DNA from: Clostridiales bacterium FE2011
Lineage (GTDB): Bacteria; Bacillota; Clostridia; Christensenellales; Aristaeellaceae
DNA: 64,000 nucleotides
Reading direction: 5' to 3'
NCBI GenBank assembly: GCA_017569305.1
Contig: CP069418.1
Span: 1,302,001-1,366,000 of the forward strand
Part shown: positions 1-37,120 of the stretch, one piece after another
Layout of the letters: the number at the start of each line of letters is the position of its first letter
Numbering within the stretch: position 1 is the stretch's first letter
Made by a program: the position numbers and the translations under genes
Notes under the pieces: model-generated
The model's input: only the letters and a program-made list of their open reading frames with translations
Databases searched by the model: none
Told to the model about the DNA's origin: nothing

Positions 1-798
1 ATTCTTCTGATCACCATCAGCGCCATCTGGCTGATCCCCTTCTTCTGCATTGTGCTGCAGTCCTTCCGGGTGGAAAGCACCTGGCAGGTGGGCTACGTGA
101 TGCCCAAAGTCTGGGGCCTGGACAACTACCGGAAGCTGTTCTCCTCAGACTTTACCCGCTGGTATACAAACACCTTCATTATTTCCGTCTTTACCGCACT
201 CTTCCAGACGGTCATCGTGCTGTGCATGAGCTACACGCTCAGCCGTTTCCGTTTCAAGATGCGTAAACCCCTGATGAGGTTCATGCTTATCCTGGGCTTC
301 TTCCCCGGCATGCTGACCATGATTATCCTGTACCGCGTGCTGAAGGACCTGGGCCTTACCCAGGCCAACGCAGTTCCCGGTCTGATCCTGGTCTACATCG
401 CCTCCTCCGGTATGGGCTACTATGTGTCCAAAGGTTTCTTTGACACCATCCCCAAATCGCTGGATGAAGCCGCCCGTGTCGACGGGGCGACCCGTTTCCA
501 GGTGCTGAAAAAGATCATCCTGCCGCTCTCCAAGCCCATCGTCATCTACACAGTCCTGACGGCATTCATGGGCCCCTGGGGCGACTACGTCTTTGCCCGC
601 TACATTTCCTTCGGCGCATCCGCCGGTATGAACGTGGCGGTCGGTCTGTACAACTGGCTGACGCCAGACCAGATCAACAACAACTACACCATGTTCTGCG
701 CGGGCGGCGTACTGGTGGCAATCCCTGTTACGCTTCTGTTCCTGTTCTTACAGAAGTACTATGTGGAAGGCGTAACAGGAGGCGCAGTCAAAGGCTAA
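1..798 (+). CDS. Sugar ABC transporter permease, MalG type (5' truncated)
   Basis: The gene enters from the left edge. The frame is open from base 1, so the in-frame GTG at 52 is internal rather than a start. The product is a polytopic inner-membrane permease of the carbohydrate ABC importer family (binding-protein-dependent transport). The cytoplasmic EAA loop that contacts the ATPase is visible as EAARVDGATRFQVLKKIILP, about residues 145-164 of the visible part, with hydrophobic segments on both sides. The MsmK-type ATPase gene follows on the same strand after a long structured gap. The partner permease and the binding protein must lie to the left. The sugar cannot be named. A hairpin (788-809) has the stop codon in its loop. 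Confidence 0.9.
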   Translation: MLLITISAIWLIPFFCIVLQSFRVESTWQVGYVMPKVWGLDNYRKLFSSDFTRWYTNTFIISVFTALFQTVIVLCMSYTLSRFRFKMRKPLMRFMLILGFFPGMLTMIILYRVLKDLGLTQANAVPGLILVYIASSGMGYYVSKGFFDTIPKSLDEAARVDGATRFQVLKKIILPLSKPIVIYTVLTAFMGPWGDYVFARYISFGASAGMNVAVGLYNWLTPDQINNNYTMFCAGGVLVAIPVTLLFLFLQKYYVEGVTGGAVKG

Positions 799-1260
799 AG
801 CCTTTGACAGTGACTCCGAGGTGGGGAGCGAGGGACGCGGTGCCCCAGTGGGGCATTTGCCATAGGCAAAAGCGACCCGGAGTCCTGTCGTGCGCGGTGC
901 GCGGGGTTCGGAACGCCCGGAAAACTGTCCAGTGGACAGTTTTCAGTGGAGAACGGGCGGCAGCCCCGGGCACGAGGAATGCCGCCCGCGGTGCGCGCGC
1001 GAATCCTTGCCGAAACGAGCGGTGAGCGCGCTCCAGGGCGAACCTCTGAGGGCAGCCAGTGGCTGAAATTCCTAAGAGGGTTTGGAGCGCCCGGATAAAG
1101 AGCCAGTGGCTCTTTATCAGCGTAAAACGGGCGGCAGCCCCGAGAGGTCAATCGAAAGGGAGCAAGCTCCACAGTGTGGAGTTGCGACCATTGAGATTGC
1201 GGAAAAGCAGCGACGATTGAGGTTGCGGATGCGGTAAAGGGTAAAATCTTTACCCGCAGC
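788..1260. repeat. Hairpin-rich intergenic region with recurrent AGT/ATA triloops
   Basis: No credible gene lies between 799 and 1361. The space is packed with short perfect inverted repeats, mostly with 3-base loops: GTCAAAGGC/GCCTTTGAC around the stop codon, TGCCCC-AGT-GGGGCA (841-855), TTTGCC-ATA-GGCAAA (856-870), AAACTGTCC-AGT-GGACAGTTT (922-942), ATAAAGAGCC-AGT-GGCTCTTTAT (about 1095-1117), and CTCCAC-AGT-GTGGAG near 1170. A larger nested one is closed by GCGCTCCA/TGGAGCGC (about 1027-1090), with CAGCC-AGT-GGCTG at its tip. None has a U-tract, so these are not ordinary terminators. They lie between two genes of one transporter. Confidence 0.7.
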
Positions 1261-1293
1261 ACCCAGAAACGGGGTTATGAAAAGCAGTCAACT

Positions 1294-1331
1294 ATTAATT
1301 CTGAATTCTTAATTCTGAATTCTGAATTGAA
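1294..1331. repeat. AT-rich 7-base repeats (TTCTGAA type)
   Basis: Short direct repeats of AATTCTG/TTCTGAA units lie just upstream of the ATPase gene. The same degenerate heptamers recur at about 3559, 17191, 26561, 26681, 34994 and 35195, always intergenic and often next to other repeat families. Confidence 0.7.
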
Positions 1332-1361
1332 ATACCGGCGAATGGAAGGAGCAAATATAGT

Positions 1362-2489
1362 ATGGCAAGCGTAAAATTGACTGACGTCAAAAAGATTTAC
1401 GATAACAAAGTCACGGCAGTTCATGACTTTAACCTGGAAATCGCGGACAAGGAGTTTGTGGTCTTCGTCGGACCTTCCGGCTGCGGCAAGTCCACCACCC
1501 TGCGGATGATCGCCGGCCTGGAGGACATCTCCGAAGGCACCCTGGAAATCGACGGCGAGGTCGTCAATGACCTGCAGCCCAAGGACAGGAATATCGCCAT
1601 GGTTTTCCAGAACTACGCCCTGTATCCGCATATGACGGTATACGACAACATCGCTTTCAGCCTGCGGCTGAAGAAGATGCCCGAGGATGAGATCTACGAA
1701 CGCGTCACCAACGCGGCGCAGATTCTGGGCATCACCGAATACCTGACCCGGAAGCCCCGCGCCCTGTCCGGCGGCCAGCGCCAGCGCGTGGCTATCGGCC
1801 GCGCCATGGTCCGGAACGCCAAGGTCTTCCTGATGGACGAACCGCTGTCCAACCTGGACGCTAAGCTGCGCAACCAGATGCGCGCGGAAATCATCCTCCT
1901 CCGTCAGAAGCTGGATACCACCTTCATCTACGTTACCCATGACCAGACGGAAGCCATGACCCTGGGCGACCGGATCGTCATCATGAAGGATGGCTTCATT
2001 GAGCAGGTCGGTACTCCCCAGGAAGTGTTCGATACTCCCGTGAACCTCTTCGTGGCCGGCTTCATCGGCAGCCCCCAGATGAACTTCCTGAAGGCAAACC
2101 TGGAAAAGGCAGCCGGCGGATACGTTGTGGATATTCTCGGTGTCAAACTGCCCCTGAATGAAGAACAGAATGCAGTTCTGGAGCAGAAGGGCGTCGGTTC
2201 CCAGGAAATCATCCTGGGCGTCCGTCCGGAGCATACCAGCGTGTTGTTTGACAACCAGGAAGGCGCTATCGAATGCAAAATCGACGTCAACGAAATGATG
2301 GGCAGCGAGCTGCATCTGCACCTGTCCAGCCAGAACAATGACAAGATCATTGTCCGTCTCCCCACTGTGGACCTGACGAAGGAACAGCGTGAAAGCCTGA
2401 CCTTTGGCAACAAGCTGTACATCACCTTCCCCGCGAAGGTCATGCACCTCTTCGATCCCGCCACAGAAAAGAGTCTCATTGACGGCTAA
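1362..2489 (+). CDS. Sugar ABC transporter ATP-binding protein (MsmK/UgpC family)
   Basis: Cytoplasmic ATPase of 375 aa that energises carbohydrate importers. Walker A is GPSGCGKST near residue 37, the ABC signature LSGGQRQRVAIGRA near 135, and Walker B with the catalytic Glu is VFLMDEPLSNLDAK; the H-loop is YVTHDQTEA. The C-terminal third (from about 240) is the TOBE/OB regulatory extension, with VRPEH, typical of MsmK, UgpC and MalK. The start has GGAAGGA upstream at suitable spacing. The permease that ends at 798 is the likely partner, although MsmK-type ATPases often serve several transporters. A strong terminator follows. Confidence 0.95.
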   Translation: MASVKLTDVKKIYDNKVTAVHDFNLEIADKEFVVFVGPSGCGKSTTLRMIAGLEDISEGTLEIDGEVVNDLQPKDRNIAMVFQNYALYPHMTVYDNIAFSLRLKKMPEDEIYERVTNAAQILGITEYLTRKPRALSGGQRQRVAIGRAMVRNAKVFLMDEPLSNLDAKLRNQMRAEIILLRQKLDTTFIYVTHDQTEAMTLGDRIVIMKDGFIEQVGTPQEVFDTPVNLFVAGFIGSPQMNFLKANLEKAAGGYVVDILGVKLPLNEEQNAVLEQKGVGSQEIILGVRPEHTSVLFDNQEGAIECKIDVNEMMGSELHLHLSSQNNDKIIVRLPTVDLTKEQRESLTFGNKLYITFPAKVMHLFDPATEKSLIDG

Positions 2490-2502
2490 TCTTTCCAAAA
2501 TC

Positions 2503-2540
2503 AAAACCCAGCGGCCTGCTTACAGGCCGCTGGGTTTTTT
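2503..2540 (+). terminator. Intrinsic terminator after the sugar ATPase gene
   Basis: A 12-bp GC-rich stem (CCCAGCGGCCTG / CAGGCCGCTGGG) with a 4-base loop is followed by a T run. Confidence 0.93.
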
Positions 2541-2548
2541 AGTATCTG

Positions 2549-2646
2549 TCACATGCGCCATAGGCGCATATTTCATATCGCGCAAGCGATATTTCACATC
2601 CTGCGAAGCAGGATATTTCACATTGGCCAAAGGCCAATATTTCATT
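2549..2646. repeat. Array of four unrelated hairpins joined by ATTTCAY linkers
   Basis: Four successive perfect hairpins: ATGCGCC-ATA-GGCGCAT, ATCGC-GCAA-GCGAT, ATCCTGC-GAA-GCAGGAT and ATTGGCC-AAA-GGCCAAT. Each is followed by ATTTCAT or ATTTCAC. The stems have nothing in common except their terminal A-T pairs, while the linker is constant. The array lies between the ends of two convergent genes, right after a terminator. The same design recurs at 22403-22496. Confidence 0.85.
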
Positions 2647-2676
2647 GTTCTGATTTCCTTTGCCTTGCAAAGAAAA

Positions 2677-3381
2677 TCAGAACAGCTTCCCATTCATAAT
2701 CGCCAGTATCAGGTTCCCGCTGTTAAACAACGGTGCCAGGGCACTGGCTTCCACCAGCTGGTTCAGGTTATTAACCGGCAGCAGGGTCTGGACCAGGGGC
2801 AGCAGGGCAAAAGCCACAAAGCACAGCAGTGCGCCGCGGATCAACCCGAAGGCACCGCCGGCCAGGGAGTTCAGCTGCTTCAGCACCGGGAACTTGAAGA
2901 CCACTTTCAGGAAGTTGATCACAAAGTGAATCACCAGCAGCAGCGCCAGGAAGCATACAATAAAGCAGATTACATTCAGGATAGCGCCGACAATCGTCTG
3001 GGAAACATAGGTTCCCACGTCTGCGGCCGTACCGTAAACCTGGTTTGTCAGGTTGTTCTGCAGCAGGGTGTTCAGCGGAGCAGGCAGGGATACCTTATTC
3101 AGGATCTCCGTAATGCTGTTCTCAGTCAGGGACGTAACACTGCTTCCTGCCAGGGTCTGGTCGCCCAGCTTCGTTGCTGCGTCAGTATAGGACGCCAGGG
3201 TACGCAGAATTTCAGGATTGTTCTGGATCACTCCTGCCAGCTTCGGACTCAGCCAGAAGCTGAGGCCAAGGGAAAGCAGGCATCCGCCCATGGACGCCAC
3301 AGAAGAGATAAATCCACGGTACAGTCCTACCAGTATACTCAGTCCCAGGATCGCCAGGATCACAATGTCCACAATGTTCAT
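2677..3381 (-). CDS. CvpA-family integral membrane protein
   Basis: A 234-aa polytopic membrane protein of the CvpA (colicin V production) family, whose molecular role is poorly defined. The N-terminus MNIVDIVILAILGLSILVGL begins with the first membrane segment, followed by the family-typical YRGF turn. Further hydrophobic segments lie at about 35-50, 130-160 and 180-210, with the conserved LIRGALL segment near the last one. A longer soluble loop (about 50-125) separates segments 2 and 3. GGAGGA precedes the ATG. It is transcribed toward the terminator and hairpin array at 2503-2646. Confidence 0.8.
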   Translation of the reverse strand: MNIVDIVILAILGLSILVGLYRGFISSVASMGGCLLSLGLSFWLSPKLAGVIQNNPEILRTLASYTDAATKLGDQTLAGSSVTSLTENSITEILNKVSLPAPLNTLLQNNLTNQVYGTAADVGTYVSQTIVGAILNVICFIVCFLALLLVIHFVINFLKVVFKFPVLKQLNSLAGGAFGLIRGALLCFVAFALLPLVQTLLPVNNLNQLVEASALAPLFNSGNLILAIMNGKLF

Positions 3382-3524: not shown

Positions 3525-3558
3525 GTTTCTTTTCCCCGTCTCAGCGGAACACTCTGTC

Positions 3559-3590
3559 ATTATGCATTATGAATTATGAATTATGCATTG
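3559..3590. repeat. AT-rich 7-base repeats (ATTATGA type)
   Basis: ATTATGC/ATTATGA units in tandem just beyond the 3' end of the penicillin-binding protein gene. Same loose family as 1294-1331. Confidence 0.65.
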
Positions 3591-6935: not shown

Positions 6936-6981
6936 GTCATCTCGACTAAGGAGCCCAACGGGCTCCGCATGGAGAGATCTC
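6936..6981. repeat. GTCATYTCGAC hairpin repeat, copy 2
   Basis: GTCATCTCGACTAAG, inner hairpin GGAGCCC-AAC-GGGCTCC, then ATGGAGAGATCTC. The inner stem is unrelated to that of the other copies but still pairs perfectly. Confidence 0.7.
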
Positions 6982-7054
6982 CTCCGGGGATGTAGACCTT
7001 CAACACATACGGAACAGTTTCAGCAAAGAGACTATACTAATTCTGAATTGTTGT

Positions 7055-7152
7055 GGAGGCATTCGTGCTTTAGCACGACTAATGCCTCCCATGCTACAGC
7101 CGTCCATTTCTGCAAGCCATTAGCGATGCAGAAATGGAATACGGCGATCGCA
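7055..7152. repeat. Two-domain structured element, copy A
   Basis: Domain 1: GGAGGCATT, inner hairpin CGTGC-TTTA-GCACG, ACT, AATGCCTCC. Constant joint CATGCTACAG. Domain 2: CCGT, inner hairpin CCATTTCTGC/GCAGAAATGG, AAT, ACGG. Constant end CGATCGCA. Copies B (17221-17319) and C (36108-36193) keep the constant parts and change the stems in compensating fashion. This copy ends 17 bases before the clpB -35 box. Confidence 0.8.
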
Positions 7153-7169
7153 GAATTTGTTTTCTCCTC

Positions 7170-17187: not shown

Positions 17188-17220
17188 GTATTCATTCTTC
17201 ATTTTACATTCTTCATTTGA

Positions 17221-17319
17221 GCAGCTGTCCAAATCTATGATTTGGGTAACAGCTGCCATGCTACAGCTGTCAAAGTTCCGGAGACACTGTCGAACGGAAC
17301 TTTGTTAACAGCGATCGCA
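17221..17319. repeat. Two-domain structured element, copy B
   Basis: GCAGCTGT, inner hairpin CCAAATC-TAT-GATTTGG, GTA, ACAGCTGC; joint CATGCTACAG; CTGT, inner hairpin CAAAGTTCC/GGAACTTTG, TTA, ACAG; end CGATCGCA. The last 15 bases overlap the 3' end of the methyltransferase gene and supply its stop codon. Confidence 0.8.
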
Positions 17320-17910
17320 ATTCATTGCTTTAAGCACCCAGAATCCCGCTGATTTATCCAGCTTCTCCACACTGTCATACAATGTCTGCAGGTACTTCAT
17401 ACAGCTTTCCGCGCCCTGCTGTTTCCTGATCACCAGATACAGCGCGCCGCCGGGGTTCAGGCTCTTCGCCGCGTCCGCGAACATCTTGTAGATCACCTGT
17501 TTCCCTGCCCGGATCGGCGGGTTGGTCACCACTGCGTCAAAGGTCTGCCCTTCCACGGCCGCCATACCGTCGCTTTCAATACAGGTAACCTCAACCCGGT
17601 TCCGCTTCGCGTTCTCTCGGCTCAGGTCCAGCGCCCTCGTGTTCACGTCCGCCATGGTCACCCGGGTTTCCGGCCATTTTCGCGCAATCGAAATCCCGAT
17701 CACGCCCCAGCCGCAGCCCAGGTCCAGGACATCACCCTTCATTTCTTCCGGCAGCGCCTCCAGCAGCAGCCGCGTACCGGTATCCACTTCTCCCTTGGAG
17801 AATACTCCCGCATCCGTCTGGAAGCTCAGCGGAATCCCCCGGTAGGTATACTCACACCCTACCGGTCTCGATTCGCTCTGCGGCACCCGGGTATAATAAT
17901 GATCGTTCAT
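17305..17910 (-). CDS. Class I SAM-dependent methyltransferase, RsmC/YbxB-like
   Basis: About 201 aa. Probable small-subunit rRNA guanine-N2 methyltransferase of the RsmC type. Motif I is LDLGCGWGVIGISIA near residue 60 and the catalytic motif IV is TNPPIRAGK near 125, the string typical of this family. A longer frame opens upstream, but the ATG at 17910 overlaps the stop of the pseudouridine synthase gene (ATGA) and has GGGGGA just upstream. Two rRNA modification enzymes thus share an operon. The last codons (encoding NCDRC and the stop) lie inside repeat element B. Confidence 0.85.
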   Translation of the reverse strand: MNDHYYTRVPQSESRPVGCEYTYRGIPLSFQTDAGVFSKGEVDTGTRLLLEALPEEMKGDVLDLGCGWGVIGISIARKWPETRVTMADVNTRALDLSRENAKRNRVEVTCIESDGMAAVEGQTFDAVVTNPPIRAGKQVIYKMFADAAKSLNPGGALYLVIRKQQGAESCMKYLQTLYDSVEKLDKSAGFWVLKAMNCDRC

Positions 17911-22402: not shown

Positions 22403-22496
22403 CACATTCGACGAAGTCGAATATTTCATGTGGCGAAGCCACATTTCACACGGCGAAGCCGTATTTCACATGAGCCTTCAGGCTCATATTTCATTT
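22403..22496. repeat. Array of four unrelated hairpins joined by ATTTCAY linkers (second locus)
   Basis: ATTCGAC-GAA-GTCGAAT, GTGGC-GAA-GCCAC, ACGGC-GAA-GCCGT and ATGAGCC-TTCA-GGCTCAT, each followed by ATTTCAT or ATTTCAC. Same architecture as 2549-2646, with entirely different stems. It again sits between convergent gene ends after a terminator. Confidence 0.85.
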
Positions 22497-24726: not shown

Positions 24727-26562
24727 ATGAAAGGAATCACGTCCAAGGAACTGAGAAATGCCTGGATCCGTTTCTATGAAGAACGGGGACATATCAATAT
24801 CGGAGCCGTCTCGCTGATCGGCGACGGGACCACCGGCGTCATGTTCAACGTGGCTGGCATGCAGCCCCTGATGCCTTATCTGCTGGGCAAGGAGCATCCG
24901 TCCGGAAAGAAGCGCCTGTGCAACGTGCAGGGCTGCGTCCGTACGGTGGATATTGAAAGCGTCGGCGACCCCACCCACTTCACCTTCTTTGAGATGATGG
25001 GCAACTGGTCCCTGGGCGATTATTTCAAACAGGAAAAAACCCAGTGGAGCTACGACCTGCTGACCAAGGTTTTCGGCCTGGACAGCAAGGAAATCTGCTC
25101 CACCGTGTTTGAAGGCAATGACGCCGCTCCCCGGGATGATGAAACCGCAGATCTGCTGAAGAAGGTCGGCATCCTGCCGGAGCACATCTTCTACCTGCCC
25201 AAGAGCGATAACTGGTGGGAGCTGGAAGGCACCACCGGCACCCCCTGCGGTCCCGACAACGAGTGGTTCTACCCCCGTCACAACAAGCCCTGCGGCCCGA
25301 ACTGCGGGCCGGCCTGCGGCTGCGGACGGTATGTCGAGATCGGTAATGACGTTTACATGCAGTACGTCAAGAACGCCGACGGCTATTCTCCCCTGGCGAA
25401 CAAGAACGTGGATACCGGCTTCGGTCTCGACCGTATGCTGGCCTTCCTGAACGGCGTGACCGACGGCTACAAGACCGACCTGTTCATCCCGGTCATCAAG
25501 CACCTGGAAGAAAAGTCCGGCAAGAGCTACGATGATGATCCGGAAGCCCAGAAGGCTATGCGCATCATCGCGGACCATATCCGCACCTCCACCATGCTCA
25601 TCGGCGATGTGAAGGGCATCCTGCCCTCCAACGTGGGCGCCGGTTACATCCTGCGCCGCCTGCTCCGCCGCGCCATCCGCTACACCCGCCAGCTGGGTCT
25701 GGAATCCTCCGTCCTGGCTGAGGTCAGCCGGATCTTCATTGAGCAGATTTACGATGAAGCCTATCCGCTGCTGGTGGAAAAGAAAGACTATATCCTGGAC
25801 GAAATCATGAAGGAAGCCGCCCGCTTCGAAGCGACCCTGGCCACCGGCATGAAGGAGTTCACCAAGTGCATCACCGGCATCCGCCGCAAGAACGAGTTCA
25901 TGGCCCAGAAGGATCCGTCCTACAAGCCGGAAACCGAAATCAGCGGCAAGCAGGCCTTCCGTCTCTACGACACCTACGGTTTCCCGCTGGAACTGACCGA
26001 AGAACTGGCTGCCGAGGAAGGCCTCACCGTGGACGCCAACGGCTTCGCCGAAGCGTTCAAGGAGCACCAGGCCATCAGTAAGCAGGAAGGCGCCGCCAAG
26101 GGCGGTCTGACCGAGCGGAACGAAGAAACCGCCAAGCTGCACACCGCCACCCACCTGCTGCAGGCTGCCCTGCGCAAGGTTCTGGGTGATGAAGTTGCCC
26201 AGAAGGGTTCCAACATCACCACCGAGCGTCTCCGTTTCGACTTCTCCTTCAGCCGGAAGATGACCCCTGAAGAAATCGCCGAAGTGGAACGCCTGGTCAA
26301 TGTGGCCATCGATGCCAAAGTGCCGGTCGTCATGGAAGAGATGACCGTGCAGGAAGCCAAGGAAAAGGGCGCTATCGGCCTGTTCGAGAGCAAGTACGGC
26401 GAGAAGGTCAAGACCTACAAGATGGGCGAGTATTCCTTCGAAATCTGCGGTGGTCCCCACGCTGCCAACACCGGCGACCTGGGCTCCTTCAAGATCCGCA
26501 AGGAAGAATCCTCTTCCGCCGGCGTCCGCCGCATCAAGGCCACGATTGCCCCGAAAGAATAA
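24727..26562 (+). CDS. alaS: Alanyl-tRNA synthetase, short form without C-Ala/DHHA1
   Basis: About 611 aa; full-length AlaRS is about 850-880. Present: the class II catalytic core (GMQPLMPYLLGKEHPSGKKR, FFEMMGNWSLGDYFK, GFGLDRMLAFLNG), the tRNA-recognition part (IIADHIRTSTMLI, LRRLLRRAIRYTR) and the editing domain with metal ligands HTATHLL and CGGPH. The chain stops at GVRRIKATIAPKE, just after the editing domain, so the C-terminal oligomerisation and tRNA-elbow domain is missing by design rather than through a visible frameshift. Short forms are known in Clostridia, sometimes beside a full-length copy. The frame is open from 24514, but the promoter and the ribosome site at 24710-24720 support 24727. 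Confidence 0.9.
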   Translation: MKGITSKELRNAWIRFYEERGHINIGAVSLIGDGTTGVMFNVAGMQPLMPYLLGKEHPSGKKRLCNVQGCVRTVDIESVGDPTHFTFFEMMGNWSLGDYFKQEKTQWSYDLLTKVFGLDSKEICSTVFEGNDAAPRDDETADLLKKVGILPEHIFYLPKSDNWWELEGTTGTPCGPDNEWFYPRHNKPCGPNCGPACGCGRYVEIGNDVYMQYVKNADGYSPLANKNVDTGFGLDRMLAFLNGVTDGYKTDLFIPVIKHLEEKSGKSYDDDPEAQKAMRIIADHIRTSTMLIGDVKGILPSNVGAGYILRRLLRRAIRYTRQLGLESSVLAEVSRIFIEQIYDEAYPLLVEKKDYILDEIMKEAARFEATLATGMKEFTKCITGIRRKNEFMAQKDPSYKPETEISGKQAFRLYDTYGFPLELTEELAAEEGLTVDANGFAEAFKEHQAISKQEGAAKGGLTERNEETAKLHTATHLLQAALRKVLGDEVAQKGSNITTERLRFDFSFSRKMTPEEIAEVERLVNVAIDAKVPVVMEEMTVQEAKEKGAIGLFESKYGEKVKTYKMGEYSFEICGGPHAANTGDLGSFKIRKEESSSAGVRRIKATIAPKE

Positions 26563-26716
26563 TTCATAATTCACAATTCATAATTCATAATGTGATTTGT
26601 GAATTCCGATTCGTTGATTTTATTCATTACGTTTGCACCGTCTCCTGCTCTGTCAGTCAGGGCCGAAGGCCCGTTCAGCCATTAATTCTGAATTATGAAT
26701 TCTGAATTCTGAATTA
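26561..26716. repeat. Two blocks of AT-rich 7-base repeats
   Basis: AATTCATAATTCA-type units at 26561-26592 and AATTCTGAATTATGA-type units at 26681-26716 bracket the gap between alaS and the Nudix gene. The second block ends 7 bases before the Nudix ribosome site. Confidence 0.65.
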
Positions 26717-34993: not shown

Positions 34994-35036
34994 TCAATTC
35001 AGAATTCAGAATTCATAATTCATAATTCAGAATTAT
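34994..35036. repeat. AT-rich 7-base repeats upstream of metF
   Basis: AATTCAGAATTCATA-type units. A second block (ATTCTGC units) lies at 35195-35227. The 34971-35346 region holds only these and a GTCATYTCGAC repeat. Confidence 0.65.
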
Positions 35037-35123: not shown

Positions 35124-35346
35124 CCAGCCCGTCCACGTTCGGGAACCCAATCGGAACTACACCGTTTTCAAAGTGACAGGCGGAAACACTATATCATTCT
35201 GCATTCTGCATTCTGCATTATGCATTTGGCATCGCTTTGCGATGCCACTATCATTGCTATTATATTATACATTGTGAAATGCCGGTGCACAATTCTCCCG
35301 GACGCCGCATCCTGTCTTTCTCTCGTTCCTTCTGCCCATATAAATA

Positions 35347-35783: not shown

Positions 35784-35943
35784 GAACGTCCCTTCCTTTC
35801 CTTTTGTTGTCTGTATCATACCATACAGTTGGCGCGGTGACAACAGTCACCGTCGCAACAACTCTACACTCTTCACTTTTCCGGACAGGGGGCGGTTCCT
35901 CGTCCGGAAGGCAGCGTGGAGGCTGCGGAGCGTGGAAACGGGA

Positions 35944-36014
35944 TGTGACAGCAGGGACAGACCAACTGTCATCATTCCAAAGGAACGTGACAGTTGGTCT
36001 GTCCCTCTGTCACA
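35944..36014. repeat. REP-like palindrome, copy 2
   Basis: Same 70-base palindrome as at 30049, here preceded by GGAGGCTGCGGAGCGTGGAA and followed by a CCTTCGAC repeat (36016-36051). The same flanks occur at the 40.7-41.2 kb copies, so a longer composite unit has been copied. Confidence 0.85.
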
Positions 36015-36107
36015 TTCGTCCTTCGACGCGCTTTGCTTGCTCAGGATGACACCTTTTCGCTGCGAATAATCCCATGCGTCTGGATCCCATTAATTCTGAA
36101 TTGTTGA

Positions 36108-36193
36108 GCAGTTGTCCAAATCTCTGATTTGGGTAACAACTGCCATGCTACAGCCGTCAAAGTGCCATAGGCACTTTGGTAACGGCGATCGCA
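36108..36193. repeat. Two-domain structured element, copy C
   Basis: GCAGTTGT, CCAAATC-TCT-GATTTGG, GTA, ACAACTGC; CATGCTACAG; CCGT, CAAAGTGCC-ATA-GGCACTTTG, GTA, ACGG; CGATCGCA. Against copy B, T to C pairs with A to G in domain 1 and T-A becomes C-G in domain 2. It ends 6 bases before the stop codon of a minus-strand gene. Confidence 0.8.
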
Positions 36194-36199
36194 GAATTG

Positions 36200-37120
36200 T
36201 TAATTGCTTCTGTACCACGCATAAGTCTTCACGTCGCTCAGGTTTACCACCGACAGCACATATCCGCCGTCGTTCATTACAAACCAGTCGTAATCCGTCT
36301 TCTGCACATGCTCATGCACCGGCGCGTCTTCCGGGTTCACTCCCACAATGGAGATGGCCACGCCACCGTCCGTTGTTGTGCAGCCTTCGTACAGATCCGG
36401 GTTTTCATCGATGATCTGCTGAAACCGCTCGCCGAAGAAGGGACTGAGCCCGCAGTGAATGACCAGCGGGTAATCCAGCCATCTGGCAAGTTCCGGTTCG
36501 TCTGTCGTGTTATAGCCGTAATCCCGGAGGGTTCCGATATACATCATCACATGCCGGGTTTCGGAGTTTTCGTGTTTGATGACCAGCAGATCGCCCTCCT
36601 GCAGGGTGTTCTTCAGTTCCGGATAGGGCGGCGCCTCAAACCCTTCACGGCTGTCAAATACATGGAACGGCCGCTGGTCCCAGTTGTTCAGGATTTCCGA
36701 CAGCGGCGGATGCGACTCCCGTCCGCAGGCTTTGAACACATGCCGGGTAAAGCCGGTGCAGTCCAGGCCGTACAGATACGTTTTTCCCCGCTGGAAATAT
36801 CCGGTTTTGGTCTCGCAGGTGATCACGTGATAATTCGGATAGGACATATAAAAATATCCGTTCCACTTGGTCCCGGACAGTCCGCCGAAGTAATAGGGAA
36901 CGCCGTCGGTGTACAGGGTGTTGATCACCCGTCCCGTCAGTTGTTCATACCGGGCAACAAAAGGATTCGCCTCTTCCAGCAGTTCAAACGCCGCCTCCAG
37001 CATTGCCGATTCCTTTACCACCGCCTGCCCGGAACCGGTAAACGTCATCAAAATCACCGTCAGCAGCACTGCGATTCTTCGGACAGTCCTCCTGCCTCGC
37101 AGTATTGTTTTTTCTGTCAT
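36200..37120 (-). CDS. NlpC/P60-like secreted cysteine peptidase
   Basis: 306 aa with an N-terminal signal or anchor (about 15-33). The catalytic Cys is likely in YGLDCTGFTRHVF (near 120) and the His in TRHVMMYIGTL (near 193), in the order and spacing of NlpC/P60 amidases that cut cell-wall peptides. TDGVPYYFGGLSG before the Cys also fits. The fold continues to about 230; the remaining C-terminal 75 residues are unassigned. GAGGAGG precedes the ATG. Divergent from the cysteine synthase gene, with overlapping control regions possible. Confidence 0.75.
   Translation of the reverse strand: MTEKTILRGRRTVRRIAVLLTVILMTFTGSGQAVVKESAMLEAAFELLEEANPFVARYEQLTGRVINTLYTDGVPYYFGGLSGTKWNGYFYMSYPNYHVITCETKTGYFQRGKTYLYGLDCTGFTRHVFKACGRESHPPLSEILNNWDQRPFHVFDSREGFEAPPYPELKNTLQEGDLLVIKHENSETRHVMMYIGTLRDYGYNTTDEPELARWLDYPLVIHCGLSPFFGERFQQIIDENPDLYEGCTTTDGGVAISIVGVNPEDAPVHEHVQKTDYDWFVMNDGGYVLSVVNLSDVKTYAWYRSN

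Follow-up and report, generated by a model that had tools for sequence, protein, structure and literature searches.

What is the two-hairpin sequence that lies three times between the genes of this window (the whole 64,000-nt stretch of DNA that was analysed), and does it move or does it act as an RNA? A preliminary description recorded three copies that share constant strings while their stems differ and yet pair, and offered two readings, a structured RNA and a small mobile element of the non-autonomous kind. All three copies are present where it placed them; its starting points (7055, 17221 and 36108) mark where the D1 stem begins in each, directly after a 4-nt leader.

The element has no protein-coding role; linkers that hardly vary join its two bulged hairpins. 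The unit is about 90-103 nt long and reads as a leader, a D1 hairpin, linker 1 (CATGCTACAG), a D2 hairpin and linker 2 (CGATCGCA). In D1 the outer stem is 8 bp long and the inner one 6-7 bp; a 3-nt bulge lies on the 3' side, and the inner hairpin and bulge alone take up 19-20 nt. D2 has a 4-bp outer stem with a flanking G-C pair (in copy 1 this pair lengthens the stem CCGT/ACGG), an inner hairpin of variable length and again a 3-nt 3' bulge. The linkers are structural as well: the TGC of linker 1 pairs with the GCA of linker 2 and closes D2, and in DNA folds this pair encloses a 4x4 internal loop. The two-domain structure of the preliminary description is thus extended by a bulge in each hairpin and by the pairing of the linkers. 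The leader is TTGA in 82 of 109 simple copies, ATGC in 10, ATGA in 7 and TTGC in 5, with five other types found once each. No inverted repeat is formed by the two ends of the unit, TTGA and CGATCGCA. An inverted-repeat MITE was considered and rejected, because there are no terminal inverted repeats and the apparent repeats in the flanks are the period-7 array around the unit, with no target duplication.

Coordinates of the three copies and of their period-7 arrays in the window
Feature	Position	Strand	Details and basis
Copy 1, full unit	7051..7152	+	Match of covariance model R1 (G000:C1:1309051-1309152); leader TTGT
Copy 1, D1	7055..7089	+	Outer stem 7055-7062/7082-7089; inner stem 7063-7068/7073-7078
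Copy 1, D1 loop and bulge		+	Loop TTTA; bulge CTA 7079-7081; sequence and fold
Copy 1, linker 1 (CATGCTACAG)	7090..7099	+	TGC pairs with GCA of linker 2
Copy 1, D2	7100..7144	+	Outer stem CCGT/ACGG; inner hairpin 7104-7137; bulge AAT 7138-7140
Copy 1, linker 2 (CGATCGCA)	7145..7152	+	Sequence and linker covariation
Copy 2, full unit	17217..17319	+	Leader TTGA; D1 17221-17256; linker 1 17257-17266
Copy 2, D2 and linker 2	17267-17311; 17312-17319	+	R1 match and fold
Copy 3, full unit	36104..36193	+	Leader TTGA; D1 36108-36143; linker 1 36144-36153
Copy 3, D2 and linker 2	36154-36185; 36186-36193	+	R1 match and fold
Copy 1, period-7 array, left remnant (AATTCTGAATTG)	7039..7050	+	Resumes at 7152-7159
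Copy 2, period-7 array, left part (CATTCTT units)	17193..17216	+	Resumes at 17319-17327
Copy 3, period-7 array, left part (AATTCTGAATTG)	36092..36103	+	Resumes at 36193-36205

Taken singly, the constant strings are within chance for the window: CATGCTACAG has three exact matches and one with a single mismatch against 2.93 expected (at up to one mismatch), and CGATCGCA has four against 3.24 expected. It is the whole arrangement that holds. In the 3.56-Mb genome there are 28 matches to the combined pattern CATGCTACAG-NNGT-gap-ACNN-CGATCGCA, and there are none when the pattern is read backwards. The claim that the stems differ and still pair is borne out by 21 copies of the source genome, in which 97.5% of 600 cells are paired and both sides have changed in 21 of the 30 pairs. 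Four of five covariation measures were reached by none of 500 shuffles of these copies; the fifth, the number of pair types, was reached by 97 of the 500 and is no richer than in the shuffles. Sliding the partners out of place leaves 35-45% pairing. Folded as ssDNA, copies 1 to 3 have z-scores of -7.7, -7.6 and -7.3 for the strand as read and of -8.5, -7.0 and -7.5 for its complement, and none of 200 shuffles folds equally well.

A larger set of 122 copies, drawn by a pattern that requires near-canonical linkers, gives the same picture once 13 copies with a non-simple D1 are omitted and 5 of the remaining 109 are dropped as duplicates. The 104 distinct elements hold 2659 cells, of which 2555 are Watson-Crick and 31 are G-T. 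Copies with the sequence intact but the pairing broken, which had been named in advance as the result that would count against the structure, are rare (13 A-C cells and 60 'other'), and misregistered long D2 hairpins probably explain part of the 43 'other' cells that fall in D2. The middle pair of the linkers is C-G in 86 of these elements, T-A in 13, C-A in 4 and T-G in 1, and in other species CATGCGCAAG pairs up with CGGACGCA (L078, L079, L081) while TGC/GCA is retained. From the sequences compared, it looks like the folded shape, more than the letters, is what is preserved. The share of G-T pairs is 31 of 2659 (1.2%) in the element against 27 of 451 (6.0%) in 21 tRNAs from the sampled loci, a control that holds only pairs accepted by ARAGORN and so limits the comparison to the G-T share. 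Since G-T is rarer than in tRNAs, a constraint on pairing at the DNA level is favoured. On the read strand G-T nevertheless outnumbers A-C (31 against 13, p 0.0096), which favours either the read strand as the one that folds or a mutational bias.

A covariance model search of the genome and its relatives had been proposed, and it shows that the finding is larger than the three copies first noted. The model R1, built from 21 copies of the source genome, has 45 matches there; three are partials nested inside larger copies, so the genome has 42 copies. R1 matches 27 of the 37 genomes of the genus, the source genome counted, and has no match in the other 10, many of which are incomplete assemblies. 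In the same scan, whose filters were stricter, 24 genomes that belong to other families of its order have no match. Of 290 further genomes, sampled evenly over the class, 10 give weak matches at E <= 0.001, with lower scores of 27.8-64.3 bits; one of the ten belongs to the same order. The best copy in each of these genomes has two hairpins, mostly with the 3-nt bulge, and different linkers. Five stretches of viral contigs show the element pattern, and one of them, L240, has a D2 and right flank identical to those of copy L022 of the source genome. The family was not recognised when the window was first read, and it has no match in Rfam 15, whose only matches in the whole window at the gathering score are two to Gut-1; at a lax threshold, copies 1 and 3 have no match near the gathering score. 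We found no description of the element in the open-licence literature.

The hairpins behave as modules. The D1 inner unit CCAAATCTNNGATTTGG-GTA occurs under many different outer stems, and among the matches listed the outer stem is exactly 8 bp in 67 of 86 distinct occurrences, parsed from 80 listed loci of the at least 116 stretches in a species-wide scan. The record titles of the matches listed are those of Clostridia, Clostridiales, Ruminococcus, Oscillospiraceae, Lachnospiraceae and Subdoligranulum MAGs, many of them from ruminants. Inner hairpins are also exchanged, with a D2-type hairpin inside D1 in L082 and a D1 unit inside D2 in L312. The D1 stems of L009 and L028 differ, yet both have the 3-nt bulge replaced by structured inserts that resemble each other. 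L247 and L263 carry a second two-hairpin unit in the apical part of D1, each hairpin with its 3-nt bulge.

Tandem runs of period 7 number 30 in the 304 kb that were sampled, while each of the periods 4-6 and 8-12 has 0 or 1; at a lower cut-off the same 304 kb hold 38 arrays, 19 of them exactly 32 nt long. Among copies from several species, 55 of 108 have a clear period-7 flank, and none of the 108 has a flank of period 4, 5, 6, 8, 9 or 10. The other 53 are without a clear period-7 flank, and some copies lie in the gap that separates a stop codon from the following gene. In the copies inspected the array flanks vary, also on the left, where a fixed target tetranucleotide would be expected. When the flanks are joined at the leader and after CGATCGC, in the 108 of 122 copies that the phase test covered, the fraction of matches at distance 7/14 is 0.529, against 0.22-0.33 for offsets that are not multiples of 7. 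Dealing the right flanks anew still gives 0.393 at phase 0 because the arrays share types. Given these chosen ends, the joined flanks keep their phase, so the unit would enter the array without altering its 7-nt register.

The period-7 arrays consist of AATTNNN and relatives (in the window and in loci L093-L110), have a modal length of 32 nt and are strand-biased, and extrapolation from the 304 kb, window included, gives about 350 (352) per genome. Several are inverted pairs around 100-400 nt. Further arrays in the window lie at 1297-1328, 3558-3589, 26559-26591, 26684-26715, 34996-35034 and 35195-35226. According to PMC4692102, heptameric repeats still lacked any detailed literature in 2015.

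Sister genomes were proposed as the place to look for empty sites, and element-free arrays turn up at each of the three sites of the window. At site 1, upstream of clpB, the array is present and element-free in the genomes G001, G008 and G035. In G002 an element precedes the clpB promoter block by about 0.5 kb, off the array position of copy 1. At site 2, G008 has the array without the element and G035, G004 and G009 have neither. At site 3 the source genome (G000) and G008 have a simple copy in common, and G001 and G002 have arrays without an element. The copy of G035 at this site agrees with theirs in D2 and in the D1 stem, and its D1 bulge is replaced by a long structured insert. As these loci align, the difference is one of insertion (or loss) of whole units, plus nesting at an orthologous copy. 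Two other repeats were seen near site 1. Positions 6938-6985 of the window and the orthologous loci L112 (G001) and L111 (G035) hold another dispersed repeat, of the GTCATCTCGACTAAGGAGCCC-GGGCTCCGCATGGAGAGATCTC type, and L114 of G002, upstream of clpB, holds an array of short variable hairpins with the constant linker ATAATTCATAT.

The element also has a direction. Of 20 samples of GC skew, those up to 1.63 Mb are negative and 9 of the 10 from 1.80 Mb on are positive, all three 16S genes are on the plus strand beyond 1.78 Mb, and the origin was set at 1.72 Mb from the skew. On this map the orientation of the element agrees with the replichore in 36 of 42 copies (p 2.8e-6), a count in which gene orientation is not separated, and five of the six exceptions lie at 1.82-2.37 Mb. 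Two sign blocks are also seen in G035 (p 0.003, in 15 of 30 matches listed) and in G002 (p 0.0006, in 18 of 35 matches listed). The gene-orientation counts around the copies were discarded because the ORF caller misplaced clpB at copy 1. The arrays have a strand bias themselves (16:2 on the left, 8:12 on the right), so the element may only inherit the orientation of its array. The best DnaA match is at G000:C1:3135772-3136254 (3.14 Mb), about 1.4 Mb from the switch in skew near 1.72 Mb, and this does not fit a simple replichore map. On the skew map the lagging strand carries the element as read, and what its template would expose is the complement; the excess of G-T over A-C runs counter to that complement as the strand that folds, for it favours either the read strand or a mutational bias.

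If the unit moves, something must move it. No transposase linked to the element was found. Y1 transposases are known enzymes that move ssDNA (PMC6006769), and across the 37 genomes their genes show no co-occurrence with the element (16/11/7/3, Fisher p 0.71). The source genome has three Y1 genes, each flanked by unrelated palindromes, and the best element score there is 9.5 bits. Since the Y1 genes do not track the element and carry other palindromes, the mover is one that we infer. The RVT_1 profile has no match in 6 of 7 element-bearing genomes (G000, G001, G002, G008, G035 and G017) and four in G005, the only one of the seven with any; such a search would miss strongly diverged RTs, and G000 and G035 are complete-looking. 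Two observations touch on the Y1 genes. In L029, at 395-3330, a Y1 gene lies between inverted copies (890-nt arms, 99%) of what by eye is an apparent IS3-type orf pair. Beside copy 3, at 35942-36020 of the window, there is a long palindrome with GACAG/CTGTC arms that by eye resembles the palindromes flanking the Y1 genes.

Several known systems resemble this element in part. Small dispersed repeats (SDRs) have a common structure with compensatory changes and are known only from a group of cyanobacteria. Those of Nostoc and its relatives were reportedly described by Elhai et al. in 2008 as 21-27 nt long, with a shared structure, heptamer arrays, nesting and a connection to HIP1, and an RNA intermediate is said to have been suggested for them. 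The element here is like the SDRs in its structure with compensatory changes, its heptamer arrays (55 of 108 copies) and its nested insertions. It is unlike them in having 90-103 nt and two hairpins against a reported 21-27 nt, in its host, which is Clostridia (the searches were within Clostridia) against the cyanobacteria of the SDRs, and in the lack of an RVT_1 match in 6 of 7 genomes where an RNA intermediate is said to have been suggested for SDRs. PMC3116915 and PMC4390886 cite the SDRs of Nostoc, and the latter has SDR5 inserting between nucleotides 3 and 4 of HIP1, GCGATCGC. This HIP1 sequence is contained in the D2 end and linker 2 of our element, where it is part of the element itself and reads CGATCACA or CGGACGCA in other copies.

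The REP and REPIN family is the other neighbour. Going by PMC3116915, PMC6006769 and PMC3733652, the likeness lies in being non-autonomous and intergenic, in a bulged hairpin with compensatory changes and in a proposed ssDNA mechanism. REPs have GTAG or GTGG 0-2 nt 5' of the stem, and long REPs have a basal stem of 7-20 bp, a bulge of 1-3 nt and a second stem of 1-10 bp (PMC6006769). D1 fits this shape (8 bp, 3 nt, 6-7 bp), and the basal stem of D2 is 4-5 bp. The element differs from REPs in having no adjacent GTAG or GTGG on the read strand; on the other strand GTAG is 4 nt from D1, only where linker 1 has CTAC. Its hairpins have the same orientation, with the bulge 3' in both, and are not the inverted pair of a REPIN, it is sited in heptamer arrays, and it has no linked RAYT among the three Y1 genes of the source genome. 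Derivatives of IS200/IS605 (IS608 and ISDra2, as in PMC6006769) are alike in their subterminal hairpins and replication-strand bias (36 of 42 here) and unlike in that, for our element, no autonomous copy was found and the target is an array; no tetranucleotide target was seen in the copies inspected. Gut-1 RNA (RF01706) likewise has variable hairpins between constant linkers, but its model has three hairpins, the linker GUGAAAUA and no 3-nt bulge, and the Rfam model misses the element. The Gut-1 matches in the window are at 2565-2647 and 22418-22496 on the minus strand, with constant GTGAAATA linkers. The element is a variant near SDRs and REPINs for which the defining features of both fail, and there is a real chance that it is of its own kind.

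Of the two proposals made for the three copies, the mobile one is supported by dispersal, by the element-free arrays of sister genomes and by nesting. The RNA proposal would have the element act as a cis-regulatory or processing RNA that spread by duplication and whose pairs are kept so that the transcript folds. The covariation and the stable RNA folds speak for it, as do the excess of G-T over A-C on the read strand, the one copy that stands before the same start codon in G000, G035 and G008 (L017, L268, L277), and copies of other species that lie in sense between a stop codon and a site like a ribosome-binding site. We nevertheless hold it to be unlikely, since the neighbouring genes vary among copies, copies sit within arrays that are element-free in sisters, orientation tracks the replichore, G-T pairs are fewer than in tRNAs and no Rfam family matches at curated thresholds. 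An RNA copy might instead be reverse transcribed and then inserted, as has reportedly been proposed for cyanobacterial SDRs, which share with the element small size, a stable structure, nesting and a heptamer context; the G-T excess on the read strand would suit this too. The lack of an RVT_1 match in six of the seven genomes, G000 and G035 among them, weakens the idea, and we think it very improbable.

Movement of a REPIN-like element by Y1 (RAYT-type) transposases that the genome itself encodes would explain the fit of D1 to the published long-REP shape (PMC6006769) and could draw on the three Y1 genes of the genome. It does not explain a stem with no GTAG or GTGG beside it on the read strand, hairpins that are not an inverted pair, or Y1 genes that have other palindromes at their flanks and do not co-occur with the element, and it strikes us as quite unlikely. 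The most doubtful of the readings is that quasi-palindrome correction during replication, not selection, maintains the pairing, in copies that are relics without activity. Such correction would leave behind what is seen, Watson-Crick pairing that is nearly perfect and has few intermediates, but it should also remove the 3-nt bulge. Both hairpins retain theirs in the modelled copies, and so do diverged families; nor would correction yield linker covariation across D2. Bulge and linker pairs that outlast neutral sites in orthologous copies are suggested as a further point against it.

We believe the best reading is a small non-autonomous mobile element that is moved as folded ssDNA by an enzyme acting in trans, and we consider this probable, though well short of certain. 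The bulged hairpins, the orientation by replichore, the insertion in register and the absence of RVT_1 from six of seven genomes together fit movement as ssDNA better than as RNA. The two hairpins would be recognised as folded ssDNA where replication forks expose it, an endonuclease or transposase supplied in trans would cut at the leader and after CGATCGC, and the cut unit would be joined into heptamer arrays that are themselves single-stranded. A broader version may be put forward tentatively, and we would not expect all of it to hold: modular ssDNA elements across the Clostridia whose shape is the heritable signal, whose units swap and nest at bulges and target 32-nt heptamer arrays one way relative to replication, moved by an undescribed enzyme, with the SDRs as a parallel or as distant relatives.

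How tiny structured repeats spread, the cyanobacterial SDRs and heptamer arrays among them, is to our knowledge an unsolved problem. The element brings in a second phylum with the same association of repeat and heptamer, at dozens of copies per genome. With that many copies, arrays of a modal length, and sisters both carrying and lacking the element, the mechanism becomes testable. The conserved shape can be used for annotation in the form of a covariance model. If folded ssDNA is indeed the substrate, there would be a new ssDNA recombination enzyme to be discovered.
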